A model generated the notes under the pieces. The model made no database searches, was not told the origin of the DNA, and was given only the letters and a program-made list of their open reading frames with translations. From Geminicoccaceae bacterium (lineage in GTDB: Bacteria; Pseudomonadota; Alphaproteobacteria; Geminicoccales; Geminicoccaceae), in NCBI GenBank assembly GCA_028279345.1, contig JANQNY010000006.1, positions 62,001 through 126,000 of the forward strand: DNA of 64,000 bases, written 5' to 3'. Positions within the stretch are counted from its first letter, which is position 1; every line of letters begins with the position of its first letter. The position numbers were made by a program, and so were the translations under genes. Below are positions 2,002-16,181 of this stretch, in pieces.

Positions 2002-3084
2002 ATGATAAAACTCAATCTGGGGTTCATTCCGCTGACCGACGCAGCGCCGCTCGTCGTCGCGCAGGAAAGGGGCATTTTCGCGCAGTTGGGCCTCGACGTG
2101 CGGCTCGTCCGTGAGCAGGCATGGTCGTCGCTTCGCGACAAGCTCGTCCATGGCGTTCTTGATGGTGCACAGGCGCTGGCGCCCATGCCGTTGGCCATGA
2201 GCCTCGGGCTCGATGCGCCGAGCATGCCGCTACGCGCGCCACTCGTGCTTAGCCGCAACGGCAATGGCATCACACTGCGCGTCGACATTGACAACGCCCT
2301 GAAGCGGCAATCGGAGAGTGGACCGCCGGAGCGCCCGCCTCCGCGTGGTGCACACGGGCCGGGGCTGCGTCGGATCGTCGAACAGCGGCGGGCCGCTGGC
2401 CAGCGACCGTTGACCTTCGCCGTCGTCTTTCCCTGGTCTTGTCATCGCTACCAACTCCACGACTGGCTGCGCGCCGGCGGGATCGATCCGGTGCGCGACG
2501 TCGCGATCGTCGTCGTGCCGCCGCCGCGCGTGGCCGATGCCCTCGCCGCCGGCCACATCGACGGCTTTTGCGCAGGCGAGCCCTGGAACCGTCTGGCCGT
2601 CACCAATGGCGTTGGTCGCATTGCCACGACCGGACTGGAACTCTGGCCAGACGCCATGGAGAAGGTCCTGGCGTTTCGAGCTGGCTGGGCCGACGACAAC
2701 GAAGATGTCGTCGAGCGCGTGCTCCAAGCACTCCTGTGCGCCGGGACGTGGCTCGACGCGCTGGATCACCGCTTCGAGGCGGCATCCATGCTCGCCGCAA
2801 AGCCCTATCTCGACCAGCCGCCGGCCCTGATCGCCATGAGCCTCCTCGGGCTCTTGCAGACCGAGCGCGCCGATCCCGGCCGCTACATGCCGGCCATGCA
2901 TCGTTTCTGTGCGCCGGCGTGGGCGGCACCGGCGGCCGCGGACGTAGAGCGCCTTATTCGCGCCATGCGTGACGCGGGTGATGTCGAGGCGGAGCGAGCC
3001 GTCGACTGGCAGGCCGTCTACGGCGGGCCGACGCTCGATGCGGCCCGGGCCAGCTTGCCTCAGCGGATGCACTCGTTGCCTTAA
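2002..3084 (+). CDS. nasS: NasS, nitrate/nitrite-sensing CmpA/NrtA-like protein
   Basis: The 360-residue product starts MIKLNLGFIPLTDAAPLVVA and lacks a signal peptide, unlike its paralogue NrtA at 3376. It follows the NrtA/CmpA fold throughout: RDKLVHGVLDGAQALAPMPL, RNGNGITL, FPWSCHRYQLHDWLRAGGIDP, GHIDGFCAGEPWN and ALDHRFEAASMLA. Cytosolic NasS is known to hold NasT inactive until nitrate or nitrite binds. An in-frame GTG at 1975 overlaps the nasT stop and could be the true start. I prefer the ATG at 2002 because homologues begin close to the GF.PL motif. Coupled translation with nasT is likely either way. Confidence 0.9.
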   Translation: MIKLNLGFIPLTDAAPLVVAQERGIFAQLGLDVRLVREQAWSSLRDKLVHGVLDGAQALAPMPLAMSLGLDAPSMPLRAPLVLSRNGNGITLRVDIDNALKRQSESGPPERPPPRGAHGPGLRRIVEQRRAAGQRPLTFAVVFPWSCHRYQLHDWLRAGGIDPVRDVAIVVVPPPRVADALAAGHIDGFCAGEPWNRLAVTNGVGRIATTGLELWPDAMEKVLAFRAGWADDNEDVVERVLQALLCAGTWLDALDHRFEAASMLAAKPYLDQPPALIAMSLLGLLQTERADPGRYMPAMHRFCAPAWAAPAAADVERLIRAMRDAGDVEAERAVDWQAVYGGPTLDAARASLPQRMHSLP

Positions 3085-3205
3085 ATTTATGCAATTAGGT
3101 AAACACTCTTATCCTTGGCACTCAGGAGCTGATATCTTAGTCAGAGACTCCATGCTTTCGCTCTTGACGTAGATGGCAGGTGGGCTTTTATCGGGTGCAT
3201 ATGAC

Positions 3206-3271
3206 GCGCTGCACCATCGTCGGTACGGCGCTCAGGTCCGACGCCGGACCTCCCGGAAGCAAAGCCGCTTC
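3206..3271 (+). promoter_or_regulatory. Two-hairpin ANTAR (NasT) target RNA in the nrtA leader
   Basis: Hairpin 1 pairs 3206-3215 with 3222-3231 (one C/A mismatch, one G-U) and closes on the six-base loop ATCGTC at 3216-3221. Hairpin 2 pairs 3256-3260 with 3267-3271 around the six-base loop AAAGCC at 3261-3266. Both loops have A at position 1 and G at position 4, the signature of ANTAR-protein targets. Hairpin 2 uses bases 3264-3271, which are also the 5' arm of the terminator at 3264-3319, so the two folds exclude each other. NasT binding to hairpin 2 should therefore allow read-through into nrtA. A further perfect small stem (3234-3240 with 3245-3251) sits in the linker. Confidence 0.8.
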
Positions 3272-3325
3272 GACCCGCTCTACCCTGTGCCACCCGCGCC
3301 GGTAGATCGGTCGAGCGGCTTTTTT
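3264..3325 (+). terminator. Intrinsic terminator in the nrtA leader
   Basis: Bases 3264-3275 (GCCGCTTCGACC) pair with 3309-3319 (GGTCGAGCGGC) with one bulged T. An inner stem CTACC/GGTAG (3280-3284 with 3301-3305) shortens the loop, and six T residues follow at 3320-3325. The structure lies 50 bases before the nrtA start, so it is an attenuator for the nitrate operon rather than the end of nasS. It competes with ANTAR hairpin 2. Confidence 0.85.
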
Positions 3326-3375
3326 GTTGTCCAGATCCGGACGCCGTCGGCGTCGATCGCAAGAGGACCTGACCG

Positions 3376-4770
3376 ATGAATCGCCCCATCCCGCACTCGT
3401 TCGCCCGCGTCCTGACTGCCGGCGCCCTGCTCGCTGGCACCGCATTCGCCACCCCAGCCGCCGCCTGGCTCGATGTCGAGAAGGACGAGCTCACGTTCGG
3501 CTTTATCAAGCTCACCGACATGGCGCCGCTCGCCGTCGCCTACGAGCTCGGCTATTTCGAAGACGAGGGGCTGTTCGTCACCCTCGAGGCCCAGGCCAAT
3601 TGGAAGGTCCTGCTCGACCGGGTCATCGACGGCGAGCTCGACGGCGCACATATGCTCGCTGGCCAGCCGTTGGCGGCGACGATCGGCTACGGCACCGAGG
3701 CGCACATCGTGACGCCCTTCTCGATGGACCTCAACGGCAACGGCATCACCGTCTCCAATGAGGTCTGGGAGTTGATGAAGCCGCACCTCGAGATGGGTGA
3801 GGACGGTCGGCCTATCCATCCAATCGGCGCCCAGGCGCTCAAGCCCGTGGTCGAGGATTTCGCTGCCCAAGGCCGCCCATTCAACATGGGCATGGTGTTC
3901 CCGGTCTCGACCCACAACTACGAGCTACGCTACTGGCTGGCCGCCGGCGGCATTCATCCCGGCTTCTACTCGCCAGACGACATCTCCGGGAAGATCCAGG
4001 CCGAAGCGCTCCTTTCGGTCACGCCGCCGCCGCAGATGCCCGCGACGCTCGAGGCCGGCACGATCTACGGCTATGCGGTCGGAGAGCCCTGGAACCAGCA
4101 GGCGGTCTTCAAGGGCATCGGCGTGCCGGTCATCACCGACTACCAAATCTGGAAGAACAACCCGGAAAAGGTCTTCGGCATCACCGCCGCCTTTGCCGAG
4201 GCCAATCCGAACACAACCCTCGCGCTCACCAAGGCGCTCATCCGTGCCGGTCGCTGGCTCGATGAGAACGACAACGCCAACCGGATGGAGGCGGTCGAGA
4301 TGCTCGCGCGGCCGGAGTACGTCGGCGCCGACGCCGAGGTCATCGCCAACTCGATGACCGGCACGTTCGAGTACGAGAAGGGCGACAAGCGCGAGGTGCC
4401 CGACTTCAATGTATTCTTCCGCTACTTCGCGACCTATCCCTATTACTCGGACGCAGTCTGGTACCTGACGCAGATGCGGCGCTGGGGGCAGATCGCGGAG
4501 GCCATGCCCGATGCCTGGTACGATGAAATAGCGCAAGAGGTCTACCGGCCGGACATCTACCTTGAGGCCGCCCGCCTCCTGGTTGATGAGGGTCTCGCCA
4601 AAGAGGACGAGTTCCCCTGGGATACCGACGGCTACCGCGCGCCCCAGAGCGAGTTCATCGACGGCCACACGTTCGATGGCCGAGCGCCCAATGCCTATCT
4701 CGAGCAGTTCCCGATCGGCCTCAAGGGCGACGAGCGGCTCAAGGGCATTGAGGTCGTGAGCGGCGACTGA
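3376..4770 (+). CDS. nrtA: NrtA, nitrate ABC transporter substrate-binding protein
   Basis: The 464-residue protein has a signal peptide ([18 protein letters not shown], cleavage near residue 31) and the CmpA/NrtA fold: [62 protein letters not shown] and [13 protein letters not shown]. The family binds nitrate or nitrite in the periplasm and delivers it to NrtB/NrtC/NrtD. An AGAGGA site lies nine bases before the ATG. This is the first gene of a run of tightly packed genes to cysG, under control of the leader terminator. Bicarbonate (CmpA) or cyanate transporters share the fold, but the reductase genes settle nitrate/nitrite. Confidence 0.95.
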
Positions 4771-4807: not shown

Positions 4808-5866
4808 ATGACGGACGCCGTCGCGGCCCCCGCGCGTCGCTTAACCCTGCCCAGCCGCAGCACCTTGTGTTCGGGCCTCAGGACCCTGGGCCTCGGCGCT
4901 TTCGCCCCCCTCATCGACCTCGCCGCCGGTGATAATCCGCGCGCCCAGCTCCAAGCATTGGGTCGCGGTCTCGGCATCCCCCTCCTCGCGGTGGTCTTCT
5001 TCCTGTGGGCCTGGGCCGTGATCGCGCCGACGATCCAAACGAGCCTCGGCGCCATTCCAGGACCCGCGCAGGTCTGGGCCCAGGCGGGCGTGCTCTATGA
5101 GGACCACGTGGCCCAGCGGGAGCGTGCCGCGGCCTTCTACGAGCGGCAGGAGGAGCGTAACGCGGCCTTTGCGGAAGCAGGTCAAGAAGAGCGCATCAAG
5201 TGGCGCGACTACACGGGCAAGCCCACCTACTTCGACCAAATCGCGACCAGCCTGCAGACGGTGTTCTTCGGCTTCCTCCTGGCAAGCGTGATCGCGGTGC
5301 CGCTCGGCATCGTCTGCGGCCTCTCACCGCTCGTGAACGCCGCCTTCAACCCGCTCATCCAGATCTTCAAACCGGTCTCGCCACTGGCCTGGCTGCCGAT
5401 CGTCACGATGGTGGTGAGTGCGCTCTACGTCAGCGACGATCCCATGTTCCGCAAGTCGTTCTTGAACTCGGCGTTCACGGTCATGCTGTGCTCGCTGTGG
5501 CCGACACTCATCAACACTGCGCACGGCGTGGCCTCGATCGACAAGGACCTCTTGAACGTCGGCAAAGTCTTGCGGCTCTCCTGGTGGACACAGATCACCA
5601 AAATCGTCCTGCCCTCAGCCCTGCCGCTCATCTTCACCGGGCTGCGGCTCTCCTTGGGTGTCGGCTGGATGGTGCTCATCGCTGCCGAGATGCTCGCGCA
5701 GAACCCCGGGCTCGGGAAGTTCGTCTGGGACGAGTTCCAAAACGGCAGCTCGGACAGCCTCGCCCGCATCATGGTGGCGGTCTTCACCATCGGCATCATC
5801 GGCTTCCTGCTCGATCGCCTGATGCTCACGCTCGAGGCTCTCGTCACCCACCGGCCCGCGCACTGA
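4808..5866 (+). CDS. nrtB: NrtB, nitrate ABC transporter permease
   Basis: The 352-residue membrane protein has a first helix around residues 55-75 (LLAVVFFLWAWAVIAPTIQ). A hydrophilic periplasmic stretch follows, then the BPD_transp_1 permease core from about residue 145. The coupling loop IDKDLLNVGKVLRLSWWTQITKIVLPSALPLIFTGLR segment (about 240-280) matches the EAA motif that contacts the ATPase. The long N-terminal part before the core is usual for NrtB of proteobacteria. It lies 37 bases after nrtA, with a CTGGAG site before the ATG. Confidence 0.94.
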   Translation: MTDAVAAPARRLTLPSRSTLCSGLRTLGLGAFAPLIDLAAGDNPRAQLQALGRGLGIPLLAVVFFLWAWAVIAPTIQTSLGAIPGPAQVWAQAGVLYEDHVAQRERAAAFYERQEERNAAFAEAGQEERIKWRDYTGKPTYFDQIATSLQTVFFGFLLASVIAVPLGIVCGLSPLVNAAFNPLIQIFKPVSPLAWLPIVTMVVSALYVSDDPMFRKSFLNSAFTVMLCSLWPTLINTAHGVASIDKDLLNVGKVLRLSWWTQITKIVLPSALPLIFTGLRLSLGVGWMVLIAAEMLAQNPGLGKFVWDEFQNGSSDSLARIMVAVFTIGIIGFLLDRLMLTLEALVTHRPAH

Positions 5867-5902
5867 GCGCCCCCAGGAGTCAGACCAGGGCGGAGAACAG
5901 AC

Positions 5903-7603
5903 ATGGCCTTTCTCTCGATCGAAGGCGTCGGCAAGCGCTACGGCGACAATGTTGTGCTCAAGGGGATCAACCTCAGCCTTGAGCGCGGCGAGTTCGTCGC
6001 CGTGGTCGGCTTCTCGGGTGCCGGCAAGACCACGCTCGTGAGCATGATCGCCGGCCTCGCGACACCGGACGAAGGTGAGATTCGCATCGACGGCAAGCTG
6101 GTGCGGGGCGCCGGTCCCGATCGTGGCGTCGTCTTCCAGAGCTACTCGCTGATGCCGTGGCTCACGGTTCGCGAGAACGTGGCGCTCGCCGTCGACGCGG
6201 TGTTCGCGGCCGAGAGCGCCGTACAACGCCGGCAGCGAACCGCAGGCGTGGTCGAAATGGTCGGCCTCGCGCATGCCGCCGATCGTCGCCCGGCCGAGCT
6301 CTCGGGTGGCATGCGCCAGCGGGTGGCCGTCGCCCGCGCGCTCGCCATGGACCCCGAGGTCCTCGTCCTCGACGAGCCGCTCTCCGCACTCGATGCGCTC
6401 ACCCGCGCCAAGTTGCAGGACGAGATCGAGGCGATCTGGGAGCAGAACCGCAAGACCGTGGTCATGATCACCAACGACGTCGACGAGGCCATTCTGCTCG
6501 CCGATCGCATCGTGCCGCTGACGCCCGGCCCAGCGGCGACGCTCGGGCCCGCTTTCACGGTCGATCTGCCACGCCCGCGCGACCGCACGGCGGTCAACCA
6601 CGATGCGCGCTTCAAGCGGCTGAGGAACGATGTCACCCGCTACCTCATGGATGTGGGCGCGCTGAGCAAGAGCCAGGGTGCCGTCAGAACCGCGTGCGTG
6701 CTGCCGAGCATCGAGCCGATCCTGCCCCGGACGCTGCGCGACCAGCGCGCGTCGAGCAGGCCAGCGGACGACGGGCGGTTTCTCGAGTTCAGCCGGCTCA
6801 AGAAGGTCTACCCGACGCCAAAGGGCCCGCTCACCGTTGTCGAGGACATCGACCTCAAGCTCGCCAAGGGCGAGTTCATCTCGCTCATCGGGCACTCTGG
6901 CTGCGGAAAGTCGACAGTGCTCTCGATGGCGGCGGGCCTCAACGACATCACCGGCGGTGCCATCGTCCTCGACGGGCGTCACGTCACCATGGCGGGCCCC
7001 GACAAGGGCGTCGTTTTCCAGGCGCCGTCGCTCTTTCCCTGGCTCACCGCACGCCAGAACGTGGCGCTCGGCGTCGACCGGGTCTATCCGCAGGCAAGCC
7101 GTTCCGAGCGCGACGACATCGTCCGCTACTATCTCGAGCGGGTCGGTCTAGGTGACGCCGTCGACCGGCGCGCGGCGGACCTTTCAAACGGCATGAAGCA
7201 GCGCGTCGGCATCGCCCGTGCGTTCGCGCTCTCGCCTAAGCTGCTCTTACTCGACGAGCCCTTCGGCATGCTCGACAGCCTGACCCGCTGGGAGCTGCAG
7301 GAAGTCCTCATGGAGGTGTGGACCCGGACCCGGGTCACGGCGATCTGCGTCACCCACGACGTGGATGAGTCCATTCTCCTCGCCGATCGCGTCATCATGA
7401 TGACCAACGGACCCAACGCCGGCATCGGCAAGGTCATGGACGTGGCGCTGCCGCGCCCCCGCACGCGCAAGGCGCTCTTGGAGCATCCCGACTACTACGT
7501 CTATCGCGAGGAGGTCCTCACCTTCCTCGAAGAGCACGAGCGCGGGCTAGGGCCCAAGGCGCGGACTCCGAAGCCGACACCCGCGCCCGTCGCGGCGGCC
7601 TGA
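5903..7603 (+). CDS. nrtD: NrtC/NrtD-type nitrate ABC transporter, two fused ATPase domains
   Basis: The 566-residue protein carries two complete ABC ATPase domains. Domain 1 (about 1-250) has Walker [10 protein letters not shown], signature [14 protein letters not shown] and Walker [13 protein letters not shown]. Domain 2 (about 290-540) has Walker [10 protein letters not shown], signature [14 protein letters not shown] (Asn for the usual first Gly) and Walker [13 protein letters not shown]. In domain 1 the H-loop reads ITNDVDEA, with Asn where His is usual; domain 2 has the normal THDVDES. So one site may be degenerate, as in other asymmetric ABC pairs. It powers NrtB. In cyanobacteria NrtC and NrtD are separate, and NrtC carries a binding-protein-like tail that is absent here. 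Confidence 0.92.
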
Positions 7604-7606
7604 GGC

Positions 7607-8842
7607 ATGGTTCGTGTCCGCCCGCATCTCGTGGTGGTCGGCGCCGGCATGGTCGCCGCCCGCTTCCTTCACGAGCTGGCGCAGCGCGCGCCCGATTGCT
7701 TTCGCGTCACCCTCATCGGCAGGGAGGACACGGCCCCCTACGACCGGGTTCAGCTGTCGGCTGTGCTCGCCGGGACCCATAGTGCCGCGGCCCTCGACCT
7801 CATGGGCGACGTCTCGAACCAGCTCGATCTCACCTTGAAGCTCGGGACGACCGTCACGGAACTCGACCCAGCTCGACGAAGCCTGACGTTGGACGGTGGC
7901 ACCACAATAGCCTTCGACATCGTCGTGCTGGCCACGGGCTCTGAGGCCGTGCGGCTGCCTCTGCCCGGCGGGCACCTCCCTGGTGTTCGCACCTTCCGTG
8001 ATCTTGCCGACGTTGAAACTTTGAGCGGCGCCTCGGGCCGGGCCGTCGTGATCGGCGGCGGCCTCCTGGGGCTCGAGGCCGCCGCGGGCCTGCGCGCCCG
8101 GGGTCTCGACGTGGCGTTGGTCCACCTGATGCCGTGGCTCATGGAACGCCAGCTCGACGCCGAAGGTGGCTCAGCCCTGGCCACCGCTATGAAGCGGCTC
8201 GGCATCGACCTCCACCTCGGCGCCAAGAGCGAAGCGATCGAAGCGGAGGGCACGGGCCTGACGCTCCGCCTCGACGGCGGCGTGCGGCTCCCCGCCGACC
8301 TCGTCGTGATGGCCGTGGGCGTTCGGCCGTACGTGGGGCTCGCGCGCGACGCCGGGCTCGCGTGCAACCGTGGCATTCTCGTCGACGATGGGCTCGCGAC
8401 GTCTGCCGAAGGCGTCTTTGCGCTCGGTGAGTGCGTCGAGCATCAGGGGACCTGCTACGGCCTTGTCTGGCCGCTCTACGCTCAGGCGCGCGTGCTGGCG
8501 CAGCAGCTGTCGGGCGACAGGGCGGCGCGCTTCGCCGGTGCTACGCCCTTCACCTCGCTCAAAGTCGCGGGGGTCGAGGTCTTCTCAGCCGGCGCCACCG
8601 ATGGCGACGACCAACTCATCCTGCGAGACCCCACTCACGGCATCTACAGGAAGCTCGTCCTCGCCGACGGCCGGCTCGAAGGTGCGGTACTCGTGGGCGA
8701 TGCCGCCGGGGGCGCCTGGTACGCCGAGCTCATCGAGCAGGGCATCCCGGTAGACGCCTGGCGCGACCGCCTGATGTTCGGCCGCGCCTACGTTCCCGAG
8801 GCCGTGGCTGACGAGCCCACGCTGGCCGTGGCGGCCGCCTGA
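7607..8842 (+). CDS. FAD-dependent NAD(P)H oxidoreductase, NirB N-terminal-like
   Basis: The 411-residue protein resembles the flavin part of NirB standing alone. It has an N-terminal dinucleotide fold (VVVGAGMVAARFLHEL), the NirB-like APYDRVQLS segment, a second nucleotide fold for NAD(P)H (AVVIGGGLLGLEAAAGLRARG, about 144-164) and an FAD-closing stretch (GVFALGECVEHQGTCYGLVWPLYAQA). No siroheme or [2Fe-2S] BFD domain is attached. It starts 3 bases after the ATPase gene and ends 10 bases before the nitrite reductase gene. It probably feeds electrons to nitrite or nitrate reduction, perhaps through the BFD-like tail of NasA. The exact partner is inferred. Confidence 0.85.
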   Translation: MVRVRPHLVVVGAGMVAARFLHELAQRAPDCFRVTLIGREDTAPYDRVQLSAVLAGTHSAAALDLMGDVSNQLDLTLKLGTTVTELDPARRSLTLDGGTTIAFDIVVLATGSEAVRLPLPGGHLPGVRTFRDLADVETLSGASGRAVVIGGGLLGLEAAAGLRARGLDVALVHLMPWLMERQLDAEGGSALATAMKRLGIDLHLGAKSEAIEAEGTGLTLRLDGGVRLPADLVVMAVGVRPYVGLARDAGLACNRGILVDDGLATSAEGVFALGECVEHQGTCYGLVWPLYAQARVLAQQLSGDRAARFAGATPFTSLKVAGVEVFSAGATDGDDQLILRDPTHGIYRKLVLADGRLEGAVLVGDAAGGAWYAELIEQGIPVDAWRDRLMFGRAYVPEAVADEPTLAVAAA

Positions 8843-8852
8843 GGAGGCGACG

Positions 8853-10655
8853 ATGACCGATCCCGGCTTCAGCGAGGAGCAGAAGGAGTATCTCCAGGGA
8901 TTCGCGAGCGGAGCGAGTGCTGCACGCGTGGCCCTCGGCATGCCGCCGCTCCAGCCGCTCACGAGCACGGGCGCCACGAAGGCGGCCGAAGACGCGTTGC
9001 CGAGCGGACCAGAGCGGTTGCACGTCGAGGCGCAGAACCGCTTTCTCGGCGCCGGCCGCAAGCTCTCCGGCGAGGAGCGAGCGAAGCGCGAAAAGCCGCC
9101 CTTCACGATCTGGGACGAAATCCGCGCCAACGCCGAAGCCGGGCGTTTTCCCAAGGGCACCGACGTCTTTCTCTACAAGTTCTATGGTCTCTTCTACGTC
9201 GGGCCGGCGCAGGAGGGCTTTATGTCGCGGCTCCGGCTGCCCAACGGCACGCTGAAAGCGCATCAACTGGCGGGCCTTGCCGAGCTCGCGGCCCGCTATG
9301 GCGGCGGCTATGCCCATGTCACGACGCGCGCGAGCCTGCAGATCCGCGAGATCGGCGCGCACGACCCAGTGCGCTACCTTGAAGGCCTCTTTGAGCTGGG
9401 CATCACCTCGCGCGGCGCCGGCGCTGACAACATCCGCAACATCACGGGCTCACCGACGGCCGGCATCGACCCGCAAGAGCTCATCGACACCCGCCCGCTT
9501 GCCCGCGAGATCCAGGTCTTCATCCTCAACAAGCCGGAGTTCTTCGGCCTGCCGCGCAAGTTCAACATCGCCTTCGACGGCGGCGGCCGGGTCGGCGTGC
9601 TCGAGGAAACCAACGACATCGGCTTTACCGCGTGTCGGGTTGAAGACGGCCACGCGGTCCCGCCCGGCGTCTACTTCCGCTTAGCGCTTGGCGGCATCAC
9701 CGGTCACCAGGACCTAGCGCGCGACGTGGGCGTGGTTGTTCGGCCCGAGGAGTGCGTGCCGGTCTGCGCCGCCGTCATCCGCGTCTTTCTGGACCATGGC
9801 GACCGCACCGACCGCAAGCGCGCACGGATGAAGTACATCCTCGACGAGTGGGGCTTCGAGCGCTTCATGGCCGAGGTCGAGACCGTGCTCGGCTATGGTC
9901 TGCCGCGGCTACCGCTCGACGCTGTGCGCCCGCGTGGGCCGATCGACCGCATGGGCCACGTTGGTGTGCACCGGCAGCGCGTGGACGGTCGCGTCTATGT
10001 TGGCGTGCCGCTCCTCGTCGGCCGTGTGTCGGTCGCGCAGATGGAGCTCTTGGCCGAGCTCGCCCGGACCTATGGTGACGGCGAGCTCCGACTAACTGTC
10101 TGGCAGAACGTCATCCTCTCGGGCATCGCCATCGACGACCTCGACATCGTCAAGGCGCGGCTCGTCGAAGTTGGGCTGCATTGGTCGGCGAGCCATCTCG
10201 CGGCTGGCCTCGTCGCGTGCACGGGCGCCTTCGGCTGCAAGTTCGGCCTCGCCCACACCAAGGAGACGGCCGGCGCGATCCACCGTGCGCTCGACGGCGA
10301 GCTTGAGCTCGACCAGCCCGTCAACATTCACCTCACGGGCTGCCCGAATTCCTGCGCACAGCACTACATCGGCGATCTAGGGCTGCTGGGCACCAAGATC
10401 GCCGATGGCGATGACGAGGACGCACCCGAGGTCGAGGGCTTCAAGATCATCGTCGGCGGCGGGTGGGGTGAGAACGCCCGGATCGGCCGCGATCTCGACC
10501 TCGCCGTGCCGAGCGCTGAGGTGCCGGACTTCATCCGCCGGGTCTTCCACACATTCCACGCGCGGCGCGACGGCGATGAGAGCTTTCTCGACTTCACGCT
10601 CCGGCATGAGGTGGACGAGCTGCGCGACCTGTTCACTCCTGGAGTGGCGTCATGA
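8853..10655 (+). CDS. nirA: NirA-type assimilatory nitrite reductase (siroheme, [4Fe-4S])
   Basis: The 600-residue protein has the two-fold nitrite/sulfite reductase layout: ferredoxin-like half-domains near 100-160 (FMSRLRLPNGTLKAHQLAGLAELA) and 370-430, and siroheme domains after each. The cluster/siroheme ligands are Cys456-x5-Cys462 (ACTGAFGCKFG) and Cys497-x3-Cys501 (TGCPNSC). It reduces nitrite to ammonium with six electrons. It follows the flavoprotein gene by 10 bases and overlaps the next reductase gene by 4 bases (ATGA), so subunits or partners are probably made together. A sulfite reductase is the alternative, but the nitrate context argues for nitrite. Confidence 0.92.
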   Translation: MTDPGFSEEQKEYLQGFASGASAARVALGMPPLQPLTSTGATKAAEDALPSGPERLHVEAQNRFLGAGRKLSGEERAKREKPPFTIWDEIRANAEAGRFPKGTDVFLYKFYGLFYVGPAQEGFMSRLRLPNGTLKAHQLAGLAELAARYGGGYAHVTTRASLQIREIGAHDPVRYLEGLFELGITSRGAGADNIRNITGSPTAGIDPQELIDTRPLAREIQVFILNKPEFFGLPRKFNIAFDGGGRVGVLEETNDIGFTACRVEDGHAVPPGVYFRLALGGITGHQDLARDVGVVVRPEECVPVCAAVIRVFLDHGDRTDRKRARMKYILDEWGFERFMAEVETVLGYGLPRLPLDAVRPRGPIDRMGHVGVHRQRVDGRVYVGVPLLVGRVSVAQMELLAELARTYGDGELRLTVWQNVILSGIAIDDLDIVKARLVEVGLHWSASHLAAGLVACTGAFGCKFGLAHTKETAGAIHRALDGELELDQPVNIHLTGCPNSCAQHYIGDLGLLGTKIADGDDEDAPEVEGFKIIVGGGWGENARIGRDLDLAVPSAEVPDFIRRVFHTFHARRDGDESFLDFTLRHEVDELRDLFTPGVAS

Positions 10656-12178
10656 ACGCGCCCTTGCCGCCGCCCTTGATCCCGGAGAACGCGCCGTTCT
10701 CGCCGGCCCAGCGGGCCTGGCTCAACGGCTTCTTCGCCGGTCTCCTGAGCGGCGACGCGCAGGCGGCGCCTGCTACAGGCTTGGCGACGCCGGTCGGCCC
10801 CGAACCCGCGGTGCCGGGCGAAGACGACGGCGACTATCCTTGGCACGATCCGGCGATCGAGCTCGACGAGCGCTTGGCGCTCGCCGAGGGTCGCGCCTTC
10901 GACCTCAAGCTCATGGCCGCGATGGGCCAGCTCGACTGCGGCCAGTGCGGCTACGACTGTCGCGACTACGCCCGCAAGATCGCCGACGGCAGCGAAGGCC
11001 AGCTCAACCTCTGCGTGCCAGGCGGCCGGTCGACCCAACGAGCACTCAAGCGCCTCATGGCCGAAACCGGCGACGCCACGCCGGCTACCGAGGCCAGCTC
11101 AGCTTCCGCGAGCGGCCGGCCGGAGCCCGTGCGCGCGAGTTTCAAGTCTGCCGAGCGGCTGACGGCGGAGAGCAGCGACAAGGACGTCCGCCACATCGTT
11201 ATCGACCTCGCAGGCACGGACCTCGACTACGTCCCCGGCGACAGCCTGGGCGTGCACGCGACCAACGACCCGGCGCTGGTCGAAGCCCTCATGGCTCGGC
11301 TCGACGACGCGAGCGAGGTCGAAGCCCTCAGCCAAGAGCGCGATCTGCGCACCGTCACCGAGCCGCTGCTCCGCGTCCTAGCGCAGCACGCCGAGCCGGG
11401 TGAGGCTTCAACGCTCAAGGCGTTGGCGGACGCTGACGATGGCAGCTTGGACGAGGACGACGTGCTCGACGTGCTCGAGCGGTTTCCATCGGCTCGCCCC
11501 CCAGCCCAGGCTTTCGTCGCCGCCCTCGATTCGCTGCAGCCCCGTCTCTACTCAATCAGCTCGTCACCTCGTCGGCACGGGCGCGAAGTGCATCTCACGG
11601 TCGCAGTCACCCGCACGGAGAAGGACGCGCGGCTCCGGAACGGCGTCGCTTCGACGTTCTTAGCCGAGCAAATCGCGCCGGGCACGTCGATCCGCGTCTA
11701 CCAGCAGCCGGCGCACGGCTTCGCCCTGCCCGAGAGCAGCGAGACGCCCATCGTCATGATCGGTCCCGGCACCGGCATCGCCCCCTTTCGCGCGTTCCTC
11801 GAGGAACGGTTGGCCGTGGGGGCGAAGGGCCCTGCTTGGCTCTTCTTCGGTAACCCCCACGCGGCGACCGACTATCTCTATCGCGATGAGCTTGAAGTCT
11901 TCCTTGCCACCGGCACGCTTACCCGGCTCGACGTCGCCTTTTCGCGCGACCAAGCGGCCAAGGTCTACGTCCAGGATCGCGTTCGCGAGGGCGGCGCCGA
12001 ACTCTGGCATTGGCTGCAGCAGGGTGCGCACGTCTACGTCTGCGGCGACGCCAAGCGCATGGCGAAGGACGTCGACGACGCGCTCGCCGAGGTGGCGGCG
12101 ACGCACGGCGGCGAGGACGGTCGACTGTTCTTGAAAACCCTCGCTGCAGCGGGCCGCTACCAGCGGGACGTCTACTGA
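10652..12178 (+). CDS. Fe-S/CysJ-type diflavin-like reductase without flavodoxin domain
   Basis: The 508-residue protein begins like its neighbour NirA (SPAQRAWLNGFFAGL). It then has a four-cysteine cluster motif, Cys96-x2-Cys99-x3-Cys103 and Cys121 (CGQCGYDC...NLC), of the [4Fe-4S] type seen in RnfB-like electron carriers. From about residue 145 it follows the FAD/NADPH module of CysJ: YVPGDSLGVHATND, RLYSISSSP (FAD), GPGTGIAPFRAFLEER and WLFFGNPHAATDYLY (NADPH), with a C-terminal RYQRDVY. The flavodoxin domain that CysJ carries is replaced by the cluster domain. The likely route is NADPH to FAD to [4Fe-4S] to NirA or NasA. It overlaps nasA at TGATG. Confidence 0.88.
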   Translation: MNAPLPPPLIPENAPFSPAQRAWLNGFFAGLLSGDAQAAPATGLATPVGPEPAVPGEDDGDYPWHDPAIELDERLALAEGRAFDLKLMAAMGQLDCGQCGYDCRDYARKIADGSEGQLNLCVPGGRSTQRALKRLMAETGDATPATEASSASASGRPEPVRASFKSAERLTAESSDKDVRHIVIDLAGTDLDYVPGDSLGVHATNDPALVEALMARLDDASEVEALSQERDLRTVTEPLLRVLAQHAEPGEASTLKALADADDGSLDEDDVLDVLERFPSARPPAQAFVAALDSLQPRLYSISSSPRRHGREVHLTVAVTRTEKDARLRNGVASTFLAEQIAPGTSIRVYQQPAHGFALPESSETPIVMIGPGTGIAPFRAFLEERLAVGAKGPAWLFFGNPHAATDYLYRDELEVFLATGTLTRLDVAFSRDQAAKVYVQDRVREGGAELWHWLQQGAHVYVCGDAKRMAKDVDDALAEVAATHGGEDGRLFLKTLAAAGRYQRDVY

Positions 12179-14775
12179 TGGCCGTGCGCACGACCTGCCC
12201 CTATTGCGGCGTAGGGTGCGGCGTGCTCGCGAGCCGAAAGGCTGACGGCCTCGTAGTGGTCCGAGGCGACCCGGACCACCCGGCCAACTATGGCCGGCTC
12301 TGCTCGAAGGGCACGGCCCTCGGCGAGACGACGGGCCTCGAAGATCGGCTCCTCACGCCGATGGTCGACGGCGTGGCGACCGGCTGGGAGGCGGCACTGG
12401 ATCGCGTGGCCCACGGTTTCGCCGCGGCGATCGACCGGCACGGGCCGGAGAGCGTCGCCTTCTACGTCTCGGGCCAACTCCTGACCGAGGACTATTACGT
12501 CGCCAACAAGCTGATGAAGGGGTTCATCGGCGCCGCCAACATCGACACCAACTCGAGGCTCTGCATGGCGTCAGCCGTCGCCGCCCACAAGCGTGCCTTC
12601 GGAACCGACACCGTGCCGTGTGAGTATACCGACCTCGAAGCCGCGGACCTCGTCGTGCTGGCGGGCTCCAACCTCGCCTGGTGCCACCCCGTCATTTGGC
12701 AACGCTTGGAGGCCGCGCGCCGCCGGCGACCTGAGATGCGGTTGGTGGTGATCGACCCGCGGCGCACGGCGACGGCCGAACTCGCGGATCTCCACTTGTC
12801 GATCGCACCTGGCATGGACGGCGTTCTCTTCGCGGGCTTGCTGGCTGAGCTCGATCGTCGCGACGTGCGTGATGACGCCTTCGTGGAAGGTCATGTCGAC
12901 GACATGGCGGCGGCGCTCGAAGCCGCCCATCGGGTCGCACCGGACCTCGCTGCCGTGGCCCGCCGCTGCGGCCTGAAGCGCGCCGACGTTGTGACGCTGG
13001 CCGACTGGTACGCCCGCCACGACCGAACGGTCACGCTATGGTCCCAGGGTCTCAACCAGTCGACCAGCGGCACCGACAAAGGCAACGCGATCATCAACCT
13101 GCATCTCTTGACGGGCCGCATCGGTCGCCCCGGCATGGGTCCCTTCTCGATCACGGGCCAACCAAACGCCATGGGCGGCCGGGAGGTCGGAGGGCTCGCC
13201 ACCCAGCTCGCTGCCCATGTCGACTTCGGCGATTCCGCGCGCACTGAGATCGTGCGCCGTTTCTGGCGCGCGCCCCGCCTCGCGACGATGCCCGGTCTCA
13301 AGGCAGTCGATCTCTTCGACGCAGTCGACAAGGGACAGATTAAAGCACTCTGGATCATGGCGACCAACCCGGCGGCGTCACTGCCGGCGGCGGATCGGGT
13401 CCGCGCCGCCATCCGCAAGTGCCCGTTGGTCGTCGTGAGTGACACCGAACGGCGCACCGACACGACCGACCTCGCACACGTGCTCCTACCAGCGGCAGCC
13501 TGGGGCGAGAAGGACGGAACCGTCACCAACAGTGAGCGCACGATATCCCGCCAGCGGGCGTTCTTGTCGGTGCCGGGTGCTGCGCGGCCGGACTGGTGGA
13601 TCATCAAGGAAGTGGCGCATCGGCTCGGCCACGGCGCCGACTTCGCATTCAACGGCCCGGCCGAGATCTTCGCCGAGCACGCGGCGCTCGCCCGAGCCGT
13701 CGTCCGCGACCTCGATTTCGGCGCGGGCGACCTCGACTACGACGGGCTCGAGCCGACGGCCTGGCCGTTTGAGGCGAAGGCGCGGCCATTTGCCGACGGG
13801 CGCTTCTTCACGCCCAACGAGCGCGCCCGCGCGGTGCCGGTGGTACCCCGACAGCCGATGCAAGTGACCTCTCTGGAACTACCGCTGGTCATGCTGACGG
13901 GTCGCTACCGCGACGCTTGGCACACGCAGACTCGGACAGGTCGCGCCCCGAGCCTTACGGGCCATCGCCCGGAGGCGCGTTTGGAGCTGCACCCAAGCGA
14001 TGCAGAGCGGGCCGGCGTCGGCACAGGCGACCTCGTGCGCGCGATCACGCCGTGGGGCGAGGCCACGCTCCGCGCCGAGATCACAGAAAGCATCGCGCGC
14101 GGCACATGCTTCGCACCCATGCATTGGACCGCGCAGCAGAGCTCTGCCGGGCGTATCGACGCGCTGGTGGCACCCAATGTTGACCCGATATCAGGCCAGC
14201 CCGAGAGCAAGGCGCAGCCTGTGGCTGTCGCCCGGGTGGTCACGGGTGCCGAGGGCTTCTTCGTCAGCACGGAACGACGCGAGGCCCCGGCGGGCGCGCT
14301 CTACTGGTCGCGACGGCGCGTCGTGGGCGGCTGGCTGGTCGAGTTCGCGCTGCCCGAAGGAGCGAGCGAACCGGCGGCCTTGGCCCGCGCGTTGGTCGTC
14401 GGCGGCGACATCGAGTGGCTCGAATACAGCGACCCGATCCAGCGCCGCTTTCGCGCGGTCGCCCGGCAGAGCGGGGCGCCGGTCCTGGCGCTCTTCGTCA
14501 ACGAAGCGCTGCCGCGCGACTGGCTCGCCGGCGCCTTCGGCACTAACGGAATCGGCGCGCGCGAGCTGCTTGCCGCCGTCGCCGCCGACGTCGGCGACGG
14601 CCCCTTGGTCTGTGCCTGCTTCGGCGTCGGCGAGGGCCGCGTGCGGACGGCCGTCACCGGCGGCGCCCGCTCGGTGGATGCGCTCGGCGCCGTGCTGAAA
14701 GCCGGTACCAACTGCGGCTCGTGCCGCCCGGAACTGCAAGCGCTCTTGCGCCATCACGTGGAGGACGCGGCCTGA
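12178..14775 (+). CDS. nasA: NasA, assimilatory nitrate reductase catalytic subunit
   Basis: The 865-residue molybdopterin enzyme has an N-terminal [4Fe-4S] motif (Cys7, Cys10, Cys14, Cys42), the Nas-type FGTDTVPCEYTDLEAADLVV segment whose Cys should ligate Mo, and the bis-MGD binding domains to about residue 680 (LMLTGRYRDAWHTQTRTGR near the C-terminal MGD domain). The last 55 residues (VCACFGVGEGRVRTAV...AGTNCGSCRPEL) form a BFD-like [2Fe-2S] domain. It reduces nitrate to nitrite in the cytoplasm. The start at 12178 overlaps the previous stop. A longer frame opens at 12010 but runs through the upstream gene and lacks homology there. Confidence 0.94.
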   Translation: MAVRTTCPYCGVGCGVLASRKADGLVVVRGDPDHPANYGRLCSKGTALGETTGLEDRLLTPMVDGVATGWEAALDRVAHGFAAAIDRHGPESVAFYVSGQLLTEDYYVANKLMKGFIGAANIDTNSRLCMASAVAAHKRAFGTDTVPCEYTDLEAADLVVLAGSNLAWCHPVIWQRLEAARRRRPEMRLVVIDPRRTATAELADLHLSIAPGMDGVLFAGLLAELDRRDVRDDAFVEGHVDDMAAALEAAHRVAPDLAAVARRCGLKRADVVTLADWYARHDRTVTLWSQGLNQSTSGTDKGNAIINLHLLTGRIGRPGMGPFSITGQPNAMGGREVGGLATQLAAHVDFGDSARTEIVRRFWRAPRLATMPGLKAVDLFDAVDKGQIKALWIMATNPAASLPAADRVRAAIRKCPLVVVSDTERRTDTTDLAHVLLPAAAWGEKDGTVTNSERTISRQRAFLSVPGAARPDWWIIKEVAHRLGHGADFAFNGPAEIFAEHAALARAVVRDLDFGAGDLDYDGLEPTAWPFEAKARPFADGRFFTPNERARAVPVVPRQPMQVTSLELPLVMLTGRYRDAWHTQTRTGRAPSLTGHRPEARLELHPSDAERAGVGTGDLVRAITPWGEATLRAEITESIARGTCFAPMHWTAQQSSAGRIDALVAPNVDPISGQPESKAQPVAVARVVTGAEGFFVSTERREAPAGALYWSRRRVVGGWLVEFALPEGASEPAALARALVVGGDIEWLEYSDPIQRRFRAVARQSGAPVLALFVNEALPRDWLAGAFGTNGIGARELLAAVAADVGDGPLVCACFGVGEGRVRTAVTGGARSVDALGAVLKAGTNCGSCRPELQALLRHHVEDAA

Positions 14776-16181
14776 TGCGCCACTTCCCGATCTTTTTGGA
14801 CCTGCGGGGCCAGCGGGTCGCCGTCGCCGGTGGTGGCGAGACCGCGGTTGCCAAGCTACGATTGCTCCTCAAGACGGAGGCCAAGATCATCGTGCTCGCG
14901 GCCGACGCCTGCGCCCAGATCCGCCGCTGGCACGACGAGGGCCGGCTCGTCTGGCACGCGCGGGCGTTCGCCCACGAGGACGCGATCCACGCGCGGCTCG
15001 TCTATGCGGCGACCGCCAATGCGCGGGATGATGCGCACGTCAAAGCGCTGGCCGATGCCGCGGGCGCACTCGTCAACGTCGTCGACGACCTAGAAGCCTC
15101 GTCCTACATCACGCCAGCCATCGTCGACCGCGATCCCGTGACCGTCGCCATCGGGACCGAGGGAGCGGCGCCTGTGCTCGCGCGGCGGATCAAAGCTGAG
15201 AACGAAGCGCGCCTGCCCTCGACGCTCGGCACTCTCGCAGCCCTCGCCCGTGACCGACGGCCGGACGTGGAGGCCCTACCACCCGGCCGCGCGAGGCGGA
15301 CATTCTGGACCGACTACTTCGACGATTGGGGACCGAAGACGCTCACCGCAGGCGGCGAGCCGGCGGTTGCAGCCGTTTTCGCGGAGAAGCTCGCGATCGC
15401 TCGGATCGATGCGGCATCGCCGCGACCGGGCAAGGTCGTCCTCGTGGGCGCGGGGCCCGGCGACCCCGAGCTTTTGACGCTCAAGGCGCGGCGCTGCCTG
15501 CACGAGGCCGATGTCGTGGTCCACGATCGCCTCGTCGCGCCGGAGATTCTGGAGCTCGCGCGCCGCGAGGCTGTCATCGTCGAAGTCGGCAAGACGCCCG
15601 GTGGTTCCGCTTGGCGCCAGGGGGATATCAATGCGCTGGTCGTGGAGCACGCGCGCGCAGGGGCGGTCGTCGCCCGCCTCAAGGCCGGCGATCCGCTTGT
15701 CTTTGGCCGGGCCGACGAAGAGATCGAGGCCCTGGATGCGGCGGGCGTCGCGTGCGAGATCATTCCCGGCGTCACCAGTGCGGCCGCCGCCGCGGCGAGC
15801 GTCGGCCGGTCGCTCACCCGACGGCAACGCAACCAGGCCATTACGCTCATGACGGCCCACGACGTGGCCGGCTTCGCTGAACACGACTGGCGCCACCTGG
15901 CGCGCCCCGGGGCCGTCGCTGCGGTCTACATGGGCGTCCGCGCGGCGCGGTTTCTGCAAGGCCGGCTTCTACTCCACGGCGCGCCGGCGAGCCGACCCGT
16001 AACGATCGTCGAGAACGCGAGCCGAGCCCACGAAAGGCGGTTCACGACCACGCTGGCGGCTCTTCCGAACGCCATCGCCGCTGCGCAGATCAGCGGCCCA
16101 GCCGTCATCTTCCTCGGCCTCGAACCGCGAGCTTCCGCTCAGCGCGACATCGAACGCGCACGACGACTCGGGTGGGCCTGA
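14775..16181 (+). CDS. cysG: CysG, siroheme synthase
   Basis: The 468-residue trifunctional enzyme begins MRHFPIFLDLRGQRVAVAGG. The N-terminal dehydrogenase/ferrochelatase part spans about 1-200 (GGGETAVAKLRLLL for NAD). The C-terminal uroporphyrinogen-III methyltransferase spans about 216-460 ([60 protein letters not shown]). It supplies the siroheme that the nitrite reductase upstream needs, which explains its place at the end of the operon. The start overlaps the nasA stop (TGATG). Confidence 0.94.
   Translation: MRHFPIFLDLRGQRVAVAGGGETAVAKLRLLLKTEAKIIVLAADACAQIRRWHDEGRLVWHARAFAHEDAIHARLVYAATANARDDAHVKALADAAGALVNVVDDLEASSYITPAIVDRDPVTVAIGTEGAAPVLARRIKAENEARLPSTLGTLAALARDRRPDVEALPPGRARRTFWTDYFDDWGPKTLTAGGEPAVAAVFAEKLAIARIDAASPRPGKVVLVGAGPGDPELLTLKARRCLHEADVVVHDRLVAPEILELARREAVIVEVGKTPGGSAWRQGDINALVVEHARAGAVVARLKAGDPLVFGRADEEIEALDAAGVACEIIPGVTSAAAAAASVGRSLTRRQRNQAITLMTAHDVAGFAEHDWRHLARPGAVAAVYMGVRAARFLQGRLLLHGAPASRPVTIVENASRAHERRFTTTLAALPNAIAAAQISGPAVIFLGLEPRASAQRDIERARRLGWA

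Follow-up and report, generated by a model that had tools for sequence, protein, structure and literature searches.

Published targets of ANTAR proteins are described as dual hexaloops, and the rule of two hexaloops joined by a short linker is how such targets are defined and sought. In the eut leaders of E. faecalis, the linkers measure 5–12 nt, and function is lost or severely impaired when the linker has 14 nt or is extended by 20 nt (PMC3369931, PMC8934654). Because EutV tolerates short linkers only, the leader considered here is puzzling. It precedes the nitrate transporter gene nrtA in a 64-kb window (the whole stretch of DNA analysed, 64,000 nucleotides) of a 4.4 Mb draft genome, and its two hexaloop hairpins, P1 and P2, are separated by 24 nt. 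This distance lies outside the eut range and within the 2–25 nt admitted by a published search (PMC8164766), and it becomes short only if a further hairpin in the linker, PX, is counted. The question is therefore what PX contributes to the leader.

The surrounding genes, all on the plus strand, form a NasS-NasT system, in which a REC-ANTAR protein stands beside an NrtA-like sensor and nitrate-assimilation genes. nasT (1403–1978) encodes a 191-residue REC-ANTAR RNA-binding antiterminator (Pfam ANTAR, E = 7.6e-21), which is the only ANTAR protein found in the whole genome. It aligns with the EutV and NasR structures, and the EutV RNA contacts R168, M172 and R177 (taken from PMC8934654) correspond to R165, M169 and R174 of NasT; N173 and R175 are not conserved. 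nasS (2002–3084, the ATG at 2002 being the presumed start of a frame open from 1975) encodes the nitrate/nitrite-sensing partner, an NMT1_2/NrtA-like binding protein (Pfam NMT1_2, E = 6e-73) that resembles the nitrate-binding domains of NrtC/NrtA. These domain assignments confirm the first-pass annotation, which had placed nasT and nasS directly upstream of the leader. The leader sits in the 291-base gap between nasS and nrtA (3376–4770), the first gene past the terminator, which encodes the binding protein of a nitrate ABC transporter (Pfam NMT1_2, E = 5.7e-92). The rest of the operon (4808–16181) comprises nrtB, a fused nrtCD, a NirB-N-like reductase gene, nirA, a gene for a cysJ-like flavoprotein, and putative genes for a nitrate reductase and a siroheme-type methyltransferase; assignments up to 12178 come from NCBIfam/Pfam, and the last two were judged from their own sequence.

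P1 (3206–3231, plus strand, as are all leader elements) has the stem GCGCUG.ACC/GGU.CGGCGC with one C.A mismatch and the loop AUCGUC at 3216–3221, with A at position 1 and G at position 4 (A1/G4), and folds with −13.1 kcal/mol. P2 (3256–3271), the presumptive antiterminator hairpin, consists of the stem GAAGC/GCUUC and the A1/G4 loop AAAGCC at 3261–3266. Downstream lies an intrinsic terminator (3262–3325; arms 3262–3275 and 3309–3321, T-run 3320–3325, hairpin −35.1 kcal/mol), and its 5′ arm takes in the loop and 3′ arm of P2. An RNA ending at 3275 folds as all three hairpins (−33.5 kcal/mol), so the two A1/G4 stems that had been proposed from the loops ATCGTC and AAAGCC are indeed formed in the truncated transcript. 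Once the terminator is included, it becomes the minimum-energy fold (−64.2 kcal/mol); enforcing P2 gives −55.4 kcal/mol, a cost of about 9 kcal/mol with loss of the base of the terminator, hence the P2 and terminator folds are mutually exclusive. This comparison of folds across 3190–3330, with and without the second hairpin, had been suggested as a check, and it upholds the claimed exclusivity, the overlap (3262–3271) being slightly larger than the 3264–3271 originally given. The fold of 3190–3330 has a z-score of −4.27, and none of 200 shuffles is as good.

Within the 24-nt linker (3232–3255), PX (3234–3251) forms a perfect AGGUCC/GGACCU stem (−11.1 kcal/mol, z −3.1) that leaves gaps of 2 nt to P1 and 4 nt to P2. 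The first-pass annotation had noted this stem as an unusual detail of a long linker. The stem is present, but the region is probably not a plain linker, as the stem itself carries a G4 hexaloop. Read as a hexaloop, PX has the loop GACGCC at 3240–3245, which departs from the strict A1 and G4 definition in having G1 in place of A1, and a G1–C6 pairing is also possible.

The overall arrangement is rare by chance. When sequences are scanned for a pair of A1/G4 hexaloops with a terminator behind it that shares bases with the second hexaloop, the leader scores 74, compared with a best score of 58 (one hit) in 2.18 Mb of dinucleotide-shuffled loci; the leader is the only scanner hit listed in the window. 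A held-out covariance model, built from 28 Rhodobacteraceae-like leaders alone, places the leader at the top of the window (E 0.0094); by score (16.7 bits) the leader also heads the genome-wide ranking, but there it is not significant (E 0.66). Further NasT targets in the genome were sought with this RNA model only, which comes from another family and is weak here, and nothing stood out. In an Rfam search of the leader, no family reaches its gathering score. The sRNAs Atu_C7 and BcKCsr2 were rejected as identities, the best match being 20.8 bits against a gathering score of 45. That match, to the Rhizobiales sRNA Atu_C7, is weak and full-length (3196–3324), and terminated leaders might account for some annotated sRNAs of this kind.

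A comparison of related leaders for covariation, also proposed as a check, lends strong support to P1. In the same 28 leaders, aligned by sequence only, 6 of 7 P1 pairs show double changes, and the whole structure gives 79 double-change cells versus 26 in shuffles, a signal that is abolished when the pairing partner is slid. PX pairs are undercounted in this analysis, since MAFFT alone misaligns PX where linker length varies, and P2 is too conserved for the test.

Support for PX comes from the nearest relative, whose NrtA is 84% and NasT 55% identical. Apart from the genome studied, nrtA occurs in a single genome of the order, which leaves one pair of orthologues for direct comparison. The orthologous leader (L032:4650–4755) precedes nrtA, aligns over the three hairpins without gaps and is followed by a homologous terminator. 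In the PX stem, 3 of 6 pairs are changed on both sides (A-U to G-C, G-C to A-U and U-A to C-G), and the PX loop of the relative is ACCGAC, a canonical A1/G4 hexaloop. The P2 stem is identical, with the loop AAAGCC here and GAAGCC in the relative. These loop differences in P2 and PX indicate that A1 and G1 interchange in orthologous hairpins. The P1 loop reads AUCGUC here and AUAGAC in the relative, where the stem of P1 is less stable in that register.

The same genome holds a second hexaloop-terminator leader between nasT and nasS (L032:3204–3333; P1 AAUGGC, middle hairpin GGAGAG, P2 AACGGC), preceded by a sigma-54-type site, TGGCACGGTGCTTGCA. The leader at L032:3229 was rejected as the orthologue, because it precedes nasS and not nrtA. 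The leader at L032:3204–3333 would possibly place nasS under NasT control, as a negative feedback; the arrangement in L303 resembles it.

NasT loci were gathered from GTDB genomes and from genomes of the class, phylum, family and order sets with a NasT alignment as query (a contig search with NasS alone found no relative), and 129 non-identical leaders were extracted. Their linkers are bimodal in length, either 0–12 nt or 17–84 nt with none between, and in the first 77 leaders the long linkers fold better than their own shuffles (Fisher P 1e-17). When each long linker was folded and its loop read without demanding any loop sequence, position 4 was G in 38 of 54 middle hairpins with loops of 6–7 nt, compared with 15.7% in shuffles (P = 4e-19), and no enrichment of G was seen at positions 2, 3 or 5. 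The preference persists after removal of similar linkers (29 of 37, P 1e-15) and is significant separately in the Rhodobacteraceae-like family (a putative name) and in the remaining leaders. Position 1 is mostly A or G; hairpins of this R1/G4 type occur in 43 of 67 long linkers, with any other loop class in at most 11. They lie most often 2–6 nt ahead of P2, which is the spacing of ordinary dual leaders. Furthermore, 15 of 47 short-linker leaders carry an R1/G4 hairpin upstream of P1. At the P2 position, loops are A1G4 in 38 cases, G1G4 in five and T1G4 in two, making G1 the commonest substitute for A1, with the limit that some of the five are middle hairpins. Exact significance levels in these comparisons vary with the scanner used and with the independence of the genomes. 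Together, the bimodal linkers and the G4 enrichment suggest that many NasT leaders carry three, sometimes four, hexaloops.

L321, L334, L110 and L124 each line up four R1/G4 hairpins, consecutively or almost so, and L321 folds into four. Rhodobacteraceae-like (A3) middle hairpins often have 7-nt RNNGAYN loops closed by a UCCC/GGGA stem, which is preceded by an AATTC-like stretch. The Rhizobium-type leaders L054, L056 and L085 contain a strongly conserved middle hairpin, GAGCGC..GCGCTC, with a loop that is not R1/G4; it likely plays a different role.

These findings bear first on the regulatory circuit, which appears ordinary and well supported: the leader motif, together with NasT as the sole ANTAR protein, points to an ordinary NasS-NasT antiterminator. 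Its individual steps, namely NasS release, NasT binding and antitermination, are carried over from work on Paracoccus and EutV. In Paracoccus, NasS binds nitrate, the NasS-NasT complex comes apart and the freed NasT attaches to the nas leader (PMC3795266), and in the general ANTAR scheme P1 and P2 are stabilised, with P2 pre-empting the terminator (PMC3369931, PMC3369936). By analogy, NasS would hold NasT when nitrate is missing, and polymerase starting at about 3198 would halt at the terminator at 3262–3325. With nitrate or nitrite present, NasS would let NasT go, and freed NasT would bind hexaloop hairpins of the nascent leader and stabilise P2; by consuming the terminator 5′ arm, P2 would then allow nrtA and the downstream genes to be transcribed. 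On this basis the element is probably a NasT-controlled attenuator of the nitrate-assimilation operon with a tandem P1-PX-P2 array. The leader would accordingly be three tandem hexaloop hairpins instead of two hairpins and a long linker, and comparison of leaders makes it most likely that the linker stem is a third ANTAR-type hairpin, recurrent in NasT leaders, in which G replaces A1. NasT would presumably bind PX too, and PX most likely acts either as the close partner of P2 or as a stepping stone for NasT on its way from P1 to P2. A more general proposal, put forward tentatively, is that, rather than a hexaloop pair, NasT reads a series of two to four R1/G4 hairpins passed along the growing transcript, in which the final hairpin is the antiterminator, and that G1 is accepted. 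Two points speak against PX as a recognition hairpin: G1–C6 pairing gives a tetraloop that might hide the loop, and mutation of A1 lowers EutV binding (PMC3369931).

Two features of PX, a perfect stem and a possible tetraloop, suit an alternative that has a modest chance of being correct, namely that the leader is a classic dual-hexaloop antiterminator with PX as a structural spacer only. The PX hairpin takes up 18 of the 24 linker bases and leaves 6 unpaired, which would bring P1 and P2 within the distance that ANTAR proteins need, as expected from the intolerance of EutV to longer linkers (PMC3369931, PMC8934654). The good folding of long linkers agrees with this role, and the Rhizobium-type leaders, in which R1/G4 is lacking from the middle hairpin, imply that this hairpin is not always a hexaloop. 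However, a spacer leaves unexplained both the preference for G at loop position 4, and not at 2, 3 or 5, and the A1/G4 loop of PX in the nearest relative. A plain spacer was in fact the first reading of the middle hairpin and was dropped on the G4 enrichment. Rather doubtful is the idea that PX pauses polymerase or prevents misfolding of P1 and P2, giving NasT time to bind, with its loop as the remnant of a duplicated hexaloop; a strong early hairpin does lie right ahead of the decision point and duplication would fit the three- and four-hairpin arrays, but a remnant is expected to lose G4, which is kept in distant lineages. It is very improbable that the terminator simply ends nasTS, with an nrtA promoter downstream of 3325 and hexaloops arising by chance, since shuffled loci never reach the motif score and relatives show a conserved arrangement with compensatory changes, despite the great stability of the hairpin and a scan that gave no strong upstream promoter.

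The tandem P1-PX-P2 array can be set against known systems. Like the Paracoccus denitrificans nasA leader (PMC3795266, PMC5424462), it has nasTS directly upstream and a non-coding hairpin leader before the nas genes, and NasT was demonstrated there to be an RNA-binding ANTAR protein released by nitrate. Within the available portions of these papers, HI and HII are described but a third R1/G4 hairpin is not, and the operon here differs in opening with an NrtABCD transporter. EutV/eutP, NasR/nasF and AmiR/amiE (PMC3369931, PMC3369936, PMC8934654) share A1/G4 hexaloops, the second of which overlaps the terminator 5′ arm; unlike them, the present leader has a third hexaloop-type hairpin between the two and the wider P1–P2 distance, and the signal probably passes through NasS instead of phosphorylation. 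The actinobacterial ANTAR-target RNAs (PMC8164766) are likewise dual hexaloops, found by a search that allowed point variation in the loop, and structured linkers or third hexaloops are not described in the accessible part of that survey. No description of three-hairpin NasT leaders was found in the open-licence literature, and one may exist elsewhere. If a third or fourth R1/G4 hairpin is indeed present in many alpha- and gammaproteobacterial NasT leaders, searches built on the dual-hexaloop rule may split or miss real targets, and the hexaloop-to-hexaloop model of ANTAR dimers would gain natural cases of varying step number and spacing. In addition, the G1 variant offers a direct prediction on the loop base needed by NasT.

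Transcription of the leader probably begins near 3198, from a sigma-70-like promoter at 3164–3191 (plus strand; TTGACG, 16 nt, TTTTAT; 9 of 12 matches, by eye, which falls under the filter of the promoter scan). The promoter is weak, and its assignment draws on the relative, in which a similarly placed TTGACA lies 46 nt from P1, compared with 42 nt here; the promoter scan upstream gave no strong promoter. A sigma-54 promoter at the leader was rejected, its best site (TGGCACTCAGGAGCT, 3116–3130) having a spacing one base short and being within chance, and NtrC-like palindromes did not exceed chance.

A few further observations concern the locus as a whole. In the NasT receiver, residue 52 is Ser, whereas most relatives retain the phosphate-accepting Asp at this site and the nearest one has Ser as well; the substitution would fit control of NasT by NasS rather than by phosphorylation. 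Close NasT and NrtA homologues are absent from the sole same-genus genome and from most genomes of the family (G001–G030), so the cluster has probably been acquired or lost often. Finally, two sigma-54-like sites with one mismatch each lie upstream of nasT (1307–1322 and 1352–1367), and they are the only one-mismatch sites for the pattern used in the 64-kb window.
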